Assembly (NCBI RefSeq): GCF_030369675.1
Contig: NZ_CP128477.1
Span: 4,234,501-4,298,500 of the forward strand
Direction: 5' to 3'
Length of the DNA stretch: 64,000 nucleotides
Origin: Peteryoungia algae
Lineage (GTDB): Bacteria > Pseudomonadota > Alphaproteobacteria > Rhizobiales > Rhizobiaceae
The translations under genes were made by a program, and so were the position numbers. Positions 47,653-50,590 of this stretch are shown here, piece after piece; the first letter of the stretch is position 1; every line of letters begins with the position of its first letter. The notes under the pieces are model-generated. The model was given only the letters and a program-made list of their open reading frames with translations. It was not told where the DNA came from and searched no databases.

Positions 47653-47964
47653 CTTGACGCTCTGACTGTACCCGGACTGATTGCTTGAGCTTAACGCAGC
47701 ATGGTTAATCATGATTTGACGGTATTCTATCGGGTCGAGATTTCGCGAGGCTTGCCGCAGCGCAAATATTGTAAATCGATCTCAGTCGCCCGTTTGCGCC
47801 ATGCTTTCAGAGGCGAAATATAGTGCGTTGCTGCAGGCCTTGGAAAACAATGGAAAATTCCCCGGATCTTCGTTTCCACACCGACTTCGCTCCATGTCGC
47901 AAACGATTTGGGCCGTGTCGTTTCGCAGTGCAGCGCGCGTCTGCGCCGTGTGATTAGATGCAAG
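47653..47964. other. Intergenic region upstream of the B12 riboswitch
   Basis: About 310 bases between a minus-strand gene of unknown function and the riboswitch. It must hold the promoter for the riboswitch transcript. A short minus-strand frame (47727-48293) runs through the riboswitch and is rejected as coding. Confidence 0.5.
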
Positions 47965-48150
47965 TCAAGCTCGAGGTGCTGCCCTGCTAGGGAGGGTGGG
48001 AAATCGGGAAGCCGGTCGAAATCCGGCGCTGCCCCCGCAACGGTGGTGGAGAATGCGTTATGGCAAAAGGCCACTGGGGGCGACCCTGGGAAGGCGCCGA
48101 CGCGGTCCGCGAATGGACCACTCCTGAGCCCGGAAACCAGCCTTGGCAGA
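47965..48150 (+). ncRNA. Cobalamin (AdoCbl-type) riboswitch
   Basis: The conserved core of the B12 element can be read in order: CTCGAGGTGCTG near the 5' end; GGGAAATCGGGAAGCCGG followed by AAATCCGGCGCTGCCCCC GCAACGGT (the GGGAA ... GCTGCCCCCGCAAC block, about 47999-48043); CCACTGGGGG and CCCTGGGAAGGCGCC (about 48070-48098); and the B12 box GAGCCCGGAAACCAGCC at 48126-48142. The next gene, a Rieske oxygenase, starts at 48259 with its own ribosome-binding site about 100 bases after the B12 box; I cannot see whether control is by termination or by blocking translation. Confidence 0.9.
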
Positions 48151-48258
48151 TGGACATTTGAGGTTGCGGAGGGCGACCGGAGATAGCCATGCAGCGTCTT
48201 TTCAAGGCGGTGACGGGCTGTGCTCTCTTCTCCCCCGGGTTTTGCAAACGAGGACGAC

Positions 48259-49503
48259 ATGGACCTGCAGGCCAACATGCTGCGCCAGCTCAAGAATCGC
48301 CGCGAAGGCTTCTCGCTCGAGCAGCCCTTTTACATCGACCAGGACTACTTCAAGCTCGACATGGAGCAGATCTGGTATCGCGACTGGCTGTTCATTGGCC
48401 ACGACTGCGAGATTCCCCGCGCCGGCAATTATTTCACCGCCCAGATCGGCGATTATCCTGTGGTCCTGGTCCGTGGCAAGGATCAGGTCATCCGCGCCTT
48501 CCACAACACCTGCCGCCATCGCGGCCACCGCGTCTGCACCTCCGATCGCGGTGCCTCTGCCAAGCTCGTCTGTCCCTATCACAACTGGACCTATGACCTC
48601 GACGGCTCGCTCGTCTTTGCCCGTCAGATGGGCGAAACCTTCGACAAGAGCGAATTTGGCCTCAAGCCGGTGCATTGCGAAAGTGTCGGGGGCTATATCT
48701 TCATTTGCCTCGCCAATGAGCCTGCCGATTTCGCGCCAGTCCGGGCCTCGATCGAGCCCTACATGAAGCCGCACCGGCTTTCCGAGGCCAAGGTCGCCCA
48801 TCGCAGCACGATCATCGAAAAGGGCAACTGGAAGCTCGTCTGGGAAAACAACCGCGAATGCTACCATTGCGCCGGCAATCATCCGGAACTCTGCCGCACC
48901 TATCCGGAAGCCCCGACGGCGACCGGCGTGCAGGGCGCCGGTGACGATCCCGTGATCGCCGAGCACTGGCAGCGCTGCGAGGCTGCCGGGCTTCCGAGCG
49001 CCTTCAATATGGATCCGTCGGGCCAGTTCCGAACGGCCCGCATGCCCTTGATCCAGGATGCCGAGAGCTACACTCTGTCCGGCAAGCGCGCTGTCCGTCG
49101 GCCGCTGTCTGACGACGTTTCCACCTCGCATATCGGCACACTGCTGCTGTTCCACTATCCCTCGACCTGGAACCACATCCTCGTCGACCATGCGATCTCT
49201 TTCCGGGTGACGCCCCTGTCTGCCGAAGAAACTGCCGTCACCACCACATGGCTCGTGCACAAGGATGCGGTCGAAGGTGTGGACTACGACCTCAAGGAAC
49301 TTACTCATGTCTGGGAAATGACGAACGATCAGGACCGGTCGATCGTCGAGGAAAATGCCTTTGGCATTCGCTCGCCCGCCTATGAACCTGGTCCCTATTC
49401 CGTCGAGCACGAGGGTGGCGTCATGCAATTCGTCGAGTGGTACACGACCTTCATGATCAACCGGCTCCAGGGCGACAAGGCCCGCCTGTCTGTGGTGGCA
49501 TGA
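48259..49503 (+). CDS. Rieske non-heme iron oxygenase, alpha subunit (GbcA-like)
   Basis: 414 residues. Rieske cluster C85-R-H87 x17 C105-x2-H108 (NTCRHRGHRVC, CPYHNW). The mononuclear iron ligands are in NNRECYHCAGNHPEL (His203, His208, with Glu200 in the position of the bridging acid); the third carboxylate ligand lies in the C-terminal part. Closest in memory to GbcA (glycine betaine demethylase oxygenase) and related quaternary-amine demethylases; generic pipelines call it an aromatic ring-hydroxylating dioxygenase. ATG 48259 is preceded by GAGGA and follows a cobalamin riboswitch. The reductase follows after one base. Confidence 0.85.
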   Translation: MDLQANMLRQLKNRREGFSLEQPFYIDQDYFKLDMEQIWYRDWLFIGHDCEIPRAGNYFTAQIGDYPVVLVRGKDQVIRAFHNTCRHRGHRVCTSDRGASAKLVCPYHNWTYDLDGSLVFARQMGETFDKSEFGLKPVHCESVGGYIFICLANEPADFAPVRASIEPYMKPHRLSEAKVAHRSTIIEKGNWKLVWENNRECYHCAGNHPELCRTYPEAPTATGVQGAGDDPVIAEHWQRCEAAGLPSAFNMDPSGQFRTARMPLIQDAESYTLSGKRAVRRPLSDDVSTSHIGTLLLFHYPSTWNHILVDHAISFRVTPLSAEETAVTTTWLVHKDAVEGVDYDLKELTHVWEMTNDQDRSIVEENAFGIRSPAYEPGPYSVEHEGGVMQFVEWYTTFMINRLQGDKARLSVVA

Positions 49504-49504
49504 G

Positions 49505-50590
49505 ATGAACATCGCCATCACCCAGTACCGCCACGTCGATGAGATGCGCCCCTGGTCCGACCGGGAGCATCTGCTGGAATGCGTCGCCGTCACACCTGAG
49601 GCCGCCGACGTGATGACCTTCACCTTCAGGCCCAGCAAGCCGGGCCTGTGGTTTCGCTATTTGCCCGGCCAGTTCGTCACACTCGAAATTCCGGTCGGCC
49701 CCGAGCCGGTCATGCGCACCTATACCCTCTCGTCCAGCCCGTCGCGACCCTATACGGTTGCCGTGACGGTCAAGGCGCAGAAGGAGAGTATCGGCACGCG
49801 CTGGATGTTCGACAATCTGCGGCCTGGCATGGCGCTGAAGGCATTCGGCCCGCTTGGCGACTTCTCCTACGCCAAGCACCCTGGCAAGAAATACCTCTTC
49901 GTTTCCGCCGGCTCCGGCGTGACGCCGATGATGTCGATGACGCGCGATCTGAGCGACCGGGCCCCCGACAGCGACATCACGTTCCTGAACTGCGCGCGTT
50001 CGCCCGACGACATCATCTTCCGCTGGGAGCTGGAAGCCAAGGCGCGCGACATGCCGAACTTCCAGCTCGGCTTCATCATCGAGCAGCTCGGCCGGGGTCA
50101 GCTCTGGTCGGGTCTGAAGGGTCGCATCGACAAGGCGAAGATCGCACTTCTCGCACCTGATTTCCTTGAGCGGACAGTCTTTTGCTGCGGCCCGGCACCC
50201 TTCATGGCGACCGTGCGCGAAGCGCTCGAAGGTGCTGGCTTCGACATGGAGCAATATCACGAGGAGGCTTTCCAGCCGGTCAAGGCGGAGCCTCTGGTTG
50301 TTGTCGCCGATTACACCGATGGAGAACAGGCGACGAAGGTCACCTTCGCCATGTCGGGCAGGGACGGTCTCTGCGCGCCCGGCCACACGGTTCTTCAGGC
50401 AGCCCGTGCCGCTGGCGTGCGCATCGGGGCGGCCTGCGAGTCCGGGCTGTGCGGCACCTGCAAGGTGATGAAGCTCTCGGGCGAGGTCGAAATGGACCAT
50501 AATGGCGGCATCCTCGACGACGAGATTGACGAAGGCTACATTCTCGCCTGCTGTTCGCGACCGAAGAGCGACATCGAGATCGAGGCCTGA
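49505..50590 (+). CDS. Ferredoxin reductase for the Rieske oxygenase (GbcB-like)
   Basis: 361 residues. Order: FAD domain with MRTYTLSSSPSR (flavin-binding RxYS/T type), NAD domain with FVSAGSGVTPMMSM and FCCGPAPFMATVREAL, then a C-terminal plant-type [2Fe-2S] ferredoxin with CESGLCGTCKVMKLSG and a last Cys in ILACCSRP. This is the FAD-NAD-[2Fe-2S] layout of GbcB, the electron donor of GbcA. Its start is one base after the oxygenase stop. Both genes would be controlled by the B12 riboswitch. Terminated by the hairpin at 50622. Confidence 0.88.
   Translation: MNIAITQYRHVDEMRPWSDREHLLECVAVTPEAADVMTFTFRPSKPGLWFRYLPGQFVTLEIPVGPEPVMRTYTLSSSPSRPYTVAVTVKAQKESIGTRWMFDNLRPGMALKAFGPLGDFSYAKHPGKKYLFVSAGSGVTPMMSMTRDLSDRAPDSDITFLNCARSPDDIIFRWELEAKARDMPNFQLGFIIEQLGRGQLWSGLKGRIDKAKIALLAPDFLERTVFCCGPAPFMATVREALEGAGFDMEQYHEEAFQPVKAEPLVVVADYTDGEQATKVTFAMSGRDGLCAPGHTVLQAARAAGVRIGAACESGLCGTCKVMKLSGEVEMDHNGGILDDEIDEGYILACCSRPKSDIEIEA

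Follow-up and report, generated by a model that had tools for sequence, protein, structure and literature searches.

A 64-kb window of the genome of Peteryoungia algae was analyzed (the whole stretch of 64,000 nucleotides of contig NZ_CP128477.1; positions below are counted from its first letter). It contained a cobalamin (vitamin B12) riboswitch located directly ahead of two genes encoding a Rieske-type oxygenase and its reductase. The features of this locus were as follows:

47957–48159, + strand: aptamer of a cobalamin (B12) riboswitch, RF00174 (97.3 bits and E 4.8e-23 by Rfam cmscan)
48028–48041, + strand: conserved L5 core GCTGCCCCCGCAAC (from the sequence)
48126–48142, + strand: B12 box GAGCCCGGAAACCAGCC (from the sequence)
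48162–48178, + strand: hairpin GGTTGC-GGAGG-GCGACC directly 3' of the aptamer, putative P13/L13 kissing partner (from the sequence and its conservation)
48250–48254, + strand: GAGGA, likely ribosome-binding site of the oxygenase gene, 4 nucleotides before its ATG
48259–49503, + strand: GbcA-like Rieske oxygenase, 414 amino acids, ATG at 48259; PF00355 (Rieske) and PF00848 (Ring_hydroxyl_A); NF058607
49505–50590, + strand: GbcB-like FAD/NAD/[2Fe-2S] reductase, 361 amino acids; PF00970 (FAD_binding_6), PF00175 (NAD_binding_1) and PF00111 (Fer2); NF058606

The riboswitch matched RF00174 over the full length of the model (positions 1–189), well over the gathering threshold of 31.5 bits, and was the sole Rfam match at or above this threshold across the window. 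Only four RF00174 matches were present in the 4.4-Mb genome, which places the element far above chance. The covariance model thus bore out what an earlier note had read from the letters, namely a well-formed B12 element with its core and B12 box. The position of the element before the oxygenase and reductase genes was confirmed as well: the oxygenase start lies 99 nucleotides downstream of the aptamer. The hairpin behind the aptamer would provide the kissing-loop partner expected of RF00174, its loop GGAGG being complementary to CCCCC of L5; L5 and P13/L13 are the names that we take these elements to bear. GCGGAGGGC at 48166–48174 falls within this hairpin. Among 123 riboswitch-bearing loci from the survey described below, the motif GCGGnGGGC, located 20–28 nucleotides 3' of the B12 box, was exact in 113, had one mismatch in 7, and was absent from 3; a stem flanking it was present in 111 of the 113 loci with the exact motif. 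Folding of the leader, both as a single sequence and as an alignment, revealed no clear terminator or helix masking the ribosome-binding site, i.e., no clear expression platform. At 48168–48189, the L13 loop GGAGG is followed by a second GGAG ahead of an ATG at 48189, in a reading frame other than that of the oxygenase; this could conceivably be a concealed ribosome site or an open reading frame within the leader, but by eye it was not conserved in the alignment.

The oxygenase and reductase genes are separated by one base (49503/49505), and the Pfam domains of both proteins, all over cut-offs, are those of a two-component Rieske-type oxygenase system. The best NCBIfam family was GbcA for the oxygenase (512 bits, equivalog cut-off 670) and GbcB for the reductase (376 bits, equivalog cut-off 500). 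Since both scores are below the equivalog cut-offs, the name GbcAB-like is right for the pair, while GbcAB would be too strong; the earlier description of the pair as GbcAB-like, with the look of quaternary-amine demethylases, holds for the best-matching families and stops short of the equivalog level. The nearest solved structures of the oxygenase were 3n0q and then 3vca/4qup, which we take to be the stachydrine demethylase Stc2; the latter belong to the same subfamily (391-residue alignment, E ~1e-156), score below 3n0q, and may be alike in substrate. A single full-length GbcA-like oxygenase was encoded in the genome, the other match being a 23-bit fragment. No conserved third gene that could hint at the substrate was found 3' of the reductase in the loci surveyed. 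Among more distant Rieske paralogues (44–56% identical), a riboswitch-like core and box were found in none of the 15 fetched loci, and the four paralogues scanned, over their aligned stretches only, were also under the GbcA cut-off.

Of the four cobalamin riboswitches in this single-contig genome, the three outside the window precede an ABC transporter, bluB, and cobU followed by cobW and cobN. The bluB product scored 280 bits (cut-off 150), and those of cobU, cobW, and cobN were all over their cut-offs; the ATPase of the transporter was of the corrinoid/haem type and reached no family cut-off. MetE was not found in the genome. The search for MtgB/MttB corrinoid methyltransferases that the earlier note had proposed yielded three MttB-family proteins, one of them encoded in an mtgB-mtgC-DUF1638-MetV/MetF-mtgD cluster at approximately 988–996 kb of the genome. 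In this cluster, mtgB is divergent to the gene of an MtgC-like corrinoid protein, and genes for DUF1638, MetV-like, MetF, and methyltetrahydrofolate methyltransferase lie within 7 kb. The last of these, of the mtgD type, scored 395 bits (cut-off 259), and the corrinoid protein was placed as MtgC because of its clustering with mtgB, metF, and mtgD. A putative B12-dependent counterpart of the Rieske pair, the MtgB/C/D-type cluster, is therefore encoded in the same genome, at a distance of approximately 240 kb from the cob genes headed by a riboswitch. The second MttB gene (L096:9011-12618, ~23 kb before the window start) stands beside genes for a protein with Oxidored_FMN and Pyr_redox domains, which we presume to be N-methylproline-demethylase-like, and for a LysR regulator of the GcvA/choline-sulfate type; this locus is perhaps another corrinoid demethylation route. 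The third (L097:9213-10799) encodes a protein ~41% identical to MtgB and lies ~5 kb from the gene of a ThiO/MnmC-like FAD oxidase.

An oxygenase that replaces MtgBCD without needing B12 should benefit from its switch only in genomes that encode MtgBCD. This was examined in two samples. The named set consisted of the best 80 of the 582 relatives listed, plus the window. The family set was drawn from 297 genomes of the GTDB family, including that of P. algae; 146 had a match, comprising P. algae itself, 120 genomes whose best loci were fetched, and 25 whose matches were all more distant; these 25 do not enter the association, and 11 of them contributed to the 15 distant-paralogue loci. Removal of 6 duplicates and 2 contig-end loci (L036, L220) from 201 loci left 193 evaluable ones. 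A pattern of core plus box served to score the riboswitch state. An additional Rfam scan covered 10 named negatives (of 39) together with the contig-end locus L036, 30 of the 37 family loci from genomes without MttB, and both MttB-positive negatives of the family set, L185 and L187; it overruled the pattern at L109 and L126, and the remaining negatives carry the state given by the pattern. For the family set, the presence or absence of MttB, MtgC, and metE was entered into the scripts by hand, and the entry totals (216 for MttB, 215 for MtgC) were checked.

The riboswitch was found at 123 of the 193 orthologue loci, and its presence followed that of MttB closely: 119 loci had both, 4 the riboswitch only, 6 MttB only, and 64 neither, so that 119 of the 123 riboswitch-bearing loci are from MttB-positive genomes. 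In the named set, the core and box preceded the gene in 40 of the 79 evaluable loci; with the window added, MttB was encoded in 41/41 genomes with the riboswitch and was absent from 35/39 genomes without it. In the family set of 120, the corresponding numbers were 80 with both, 4 with the riboswitch only, 2 with MttB only, and 33 with neither, one genome being left unassigned. The presence of MtgC, searched separately, equaled that of MttB in 120/120 family genomes. Lack of the element in close relatives had been named in the earlier note as a result that would speak against it. The element is indeed lacking from 70 of the 193 orthologues; however, 64 of these 70 are in MttB-less genomes, and therefore its absence turns into support for the replacement of a corrinoid methyltransferase by the oxygenase.

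The exceptions on the riboswitch side belong to one genus: the four loci with a riboswitch and no MttB scored 56–61 bits, had an altered L5 and no exact L13 motif, and therefore look like decaying elements. The exact L5 core GCTGCCCCCGCAAC was present in 117 of the 119 riboswitch-bearing loci of MttB-positive genomes versus none of these four; in this sample, all 117 elements with the exact core were in MttB-positive genomes. In the MttB-less R. lusitanum (L043), an altered B12 box and flanks remain while the core is gone, and no match was obtained at the Rfam threshold. Three genomes with a riboswitch and a single MttB (G005, G008, and G009, with loci L091, L094, and L086, respectively) were the ones typed by locus; in each, MttB was encoded by mtgB adjoining mtgC and was 91–92% identical to MtgB of P. 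algae. Most loci of the named set had a common neighborhood, glcD-tsaC-DUF6656-Rieske. A contig labeled Arenimonas sp. (a metagenome-assembled genome, L010) carried a typical Rhizobiaceae locus with the same neighbors and an oxygenase 90% identical; its label or bin looks wrong.

The association between the riboswitch and MttB survived phylogenetic correction. On a gene tree of 193 oxygenases, rooted at the midpoint, the minimum number of state changes was 12 for the riboswitch and 11 for MttB. There were nine independent pairs, on supported branches, that differed in the riboswitch: on average, 6.6 of them were concordant with MttB, 0.0 were discordant, and 2.4 had no difference in MttB (sign test, median p 0.0156, range 0.0156–0.0625). 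In a likelihood test of dependent versus independent evolution, run with a purpose-written script, the likelihood ratio was 47.5 (p 1.2e-9), and the fitted rate of riboswitch loss was 7.3 without MttB versus 0.8 with it. Approximately 10 separate clades lacking both the riboswitch and MttB were counted by eye on a compact tree.

Cobalamin riboswitches ahead of other genes served as controls. In the first set, all of the 50 genomes had cobalamin riboswitches, and the 17 MttB-less ones keep 1 to 7 elsewhere. Nine MttB-less genomes encoded MetE, and in eight of these metE had a cobalamin riboswitch of its own; among the MttB-positive genomes examined alongside, this was the case in 11/11. Eight of the nine, from three genera, also had a Rieske orthologue: the switch was present before the Rieske gene in 0/8 and before metE in 7/8. 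As metE keeps its riboswitch while the Rieske orthologues are without one, the loss is gene-specific, affecting the gene that lacks a B12-dependent partner. MetE was itself considered as a partner of the riboswitch-led Rieske gene and was rejected, the presence of the Rieske riboswitch showing no association with that of metE (15/84 vs. 8/35, p 0.61).

In some relatives, the Rieske gene has neighbors of the same regulatory kind. NrdAB and MetE are B12-independent counterparts of NrdJ and MetH, respectively, according to an excerpt of PMC8123684. Among the 6-kb loci (n = 120), nrdA and/or nrdB were near the Rieske gene in 7 and metE in 3; in one further genome, metE lies ~6 kb from the Rieske gene, followed by nrdF and an NrdE-like open reading frame. 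Four loci (L242–L245) were scanned with Rfam over 14–18 kb, and metE carried its own cobalamin riboswitch in all four (gene families were confirmed for L243 and L244 and for metE of L245, and metE of L242 was assigned by similarity). The order in L244 was riboswitch-nrdA-nrdB-riboswitch-Rieske-reductase, then metE in facing orientation with its own riboswitch. In L243, metE, the Rieske pair, and nrdA each had a riboswitch, the nrdA element being cut by the locus end; in L242 and L245, metE and the Rieske pair each had one. Two further riboswitches were recorded in these loci: a fluoride riboswitch beside metE (L244:10585-10643, 36.9 bits) and a cobalamin riboswitch near the Rieske and fdhA genes for which no clear target gene was read (L245:16820-17019, minus strand, 105.5 bits).

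Taken together, these data make it likely that the pair, using O2 and repressed by B12, substitutes for the betaine methyltransferase MtgBCD, with glycine betaine as the probable substrate; activity, substrate, and repression by B12 are predictions from families and from the riboswitch class. The earlier proposal that the oxygenase could replace an MtgB/MttB methyltransferase when B12 is scarce is thereby supported on comparative grounds by the 119/4/6/64 distribution, its persistence on the tree, the metE control, the clustering with B12-independent isozymes, and the MtgBCD-type cluster of P. algae itself. Glycine betaine is the most likely substrate because the only MttB of the three typed riboswitch-bearing genomes with a single MttB is that encoded by mtgB beside mtgC.

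The leader RNA would sense cobalamin, probably adenosylcobalamin. With plentiful B12, the bound fold, in which L5 and the hairpin 48162–48178 form a kissing loop, would hold the Rieske operon down, and a methylated betaine, most likely glycine betaine, would be demethylated by MtgB, MtgC, and MtgD, its methyl group passing to tetrahydrofolate. Upon a drop in B12, MtgBC would fail and the switch would open; the oxygenase would then take over, using O2 and NAD(P)H to remove the methyl group and yielding dimethylglycine and formaldehyde. The off-with-B12 direction is assumed from the usual behavior of this riboswitch class and could act at the level of transcription or translation. For the Rhizobiaceae as a whole, we somewhat favor a B12-gated choice between two chemically opposite routes of glycine betaine demethylation, namely a methyl-saving MtgBCD route with B12 and an O2-burning Rieske route without it. 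The switch would have been kept or lost approximately ten times in parallel according to the presence of the corrinoid route, and in some lineages the switched oxygenase would belong to an island of B12 independence alongside nrdAB and metE, themselves under riboswitches.

Several observations weigh against these interpretations. Both subunits are under the GbcA and GbcB cut-offs, and the corrinoid protein matched MtgC (NF047996) with 212 bits, below the equivalog cut-off of 370. Six MttB-positive loci (L022, L024, L027, L030, L185, L187) are without the element, so its presence does not follow necessarily from that of MttB, and another MttB-positive locus, L109, has a damaged element (68.8 bits). 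The oxygenase gene has no adjoining reductase in L034, L044, L045, L047, L064, and L066, all with the riboswitch, and in R. leguminosarum-like loci such as L072. A search of 14 genomes without the adjoining reductase gave no reductase orthologue, only paralogues with 37–42% identity in 6/14, and the riboswitch is kept in 6/14 genomes without a reductase orthologue. In the metE control, metE of G279 was without a riboswitch at the Rfam threshold, and two other metE elements of MttB-less genomes were weak (81–84 bits). Several MttB paralogues exist, so co-occurrence alone does not fix the substrate that is replaced.

A stand-in for an MttB-family enzyme acting on a quaternary amine other than glycine betaine, e.g., proline betaine, is an explanation that we regard as unlikely but the strongest of the alternatives. 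The missed GbcA cut-off, the presumed Stc2 among the solved relatives, and the second MttB gene beside the presumed N-methylproline-demethylase-like protein would all agree with it; on the other hand, the single MttB of G005, G008, and G009 is the product of mtgB next to mtgC, and the best family is GbcA, with 3 of the 120 homologues listed named "glycine betaine catabolism A" by JGI. A role in supplying one-carbon units or methionine under B12 shortage, with formaldehyde as the C1 source rather than betaine catabolism as such, appears improbable. In L245, a gene for glutathione-independent formaldehyde dehydrogenase (fdhA, 718 bits, cut-off 637) lies 3' of the reductase in the same direction, which fits formaldehyde as the product, and metE is nearby in a few relatives. 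However, riboswitch presence tracks MttB and MtgC, not metE; no metE was found in P. algae; and eight of the nine MttB-less genomes keep the switch of metE, none having one before a Rieske orthologue. The earlier suggestion, that one-carbon metabolism receives methyl groups or formaldehyde from the pair, gained little specific support: this one fdhA locus and the proximity of metE in a few genomes.

That common ancestry, or loss of B12 regulation in general, explains the association without any functional link is more doubtful still. Large clades are uniform in state, one block of 41 tips lacks both switch and MttB, and the sign test alone is modest; against this stand the separate clades lacking both, the zero discordant pairs, the likelihood ratio, and the other cobalamin riboswitches that persist in MttB-less genomes. 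Least probable of all, and hardly credible in our opinion, is that the oxygenase performs an O2-dependent step of cobalamin biosynthesis. Two of the three other riboswitches in the genome do precede B12-synthesis genes (bluB; cobU-cobW-cobN), and one a corrinoid/haem-type ABC transporter, but 64 MttB-less loci retain the gene with no switch before it, the family of the gene is that of N-demethylases, and its neighbors in some relatives are B12-independent isozymes.

The stand-in for MtgBCD belongs to a described category, cobalamin riboswitches ahead of B12-independent isozymes (excerpt of PMC3766115). As with metE and nrdAB, RF00174 precedes a B12-free enzyme whose B12-dependent counterpart is encoded in the genome, and in some relatives the pair sits among riboswitch-controlled metE and nrdA. 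It differs in that the counterpart here is a corrinoid methyltransferase system, so that two unrelated enzyme routes are involved; their products would differ too, the methyl group being kept on folate by MtgBCD and oxidized to formaldehyde by the Rieske enzyme, judging from their families. The glycine betaine monooxygenase GbcAB of Pseudomonas and Chromohalobacter is likewise a Rieske oxygenase with an FAD/[2Fe-2S] reductase and is the best NCBIfam match of both subunits, whereas the window pair remains below its curated cut-offs. For P. aeruginosa, a title cited in PMC12478193 names a transcriptional regulator, in contrast to the riboswitch found here. According to excerpts of the same paper, MtgBCD(E) demethylates glycine betaine in aerobic Proteobacteria in a cobalamin-dependent manner; in S. 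meliloti, the MtgBCD cluster is colocalized with the cob operon, and a bhmt mutant supplied with methionine still grows on glycine betaine, which is attributed to MtgBCD. P. algae has the same gene set, but at a distance from its riboswitch-led cob genes. MtgBCD is our proposed B12-dependent partner of the Rieske pair, and the presence of MttB/MtgC predicts the riboswitch.

In the literature searched, we found no report of a cobalamin riboswitch before a Rieske demethylase; an earlier listing is possible, e.g., in the regulon supplements behind RegPrecise. Within the established class of B12-independent enzymes controlled by B12 riboswitches, a betaine demethylase with MtgBCD as its partner would be a novel type of target. 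Where a riboswitch is lost together with a partner enzyme, this can indicate which enzyme is being replaced, and a generic annotation, "aromatic ring-hydroxylating oxygenase", is turned here into a testable function. The pair is a concrete candidate for B12-free glycine betaine demethylation in rhizobia. If our interpretation is true, betaine demethylation would join the few B12-independent alternatives that B12 riboswitches control, and the B12 supply of these bacteria would be linked to the turnover of betaines released by plants and algae.

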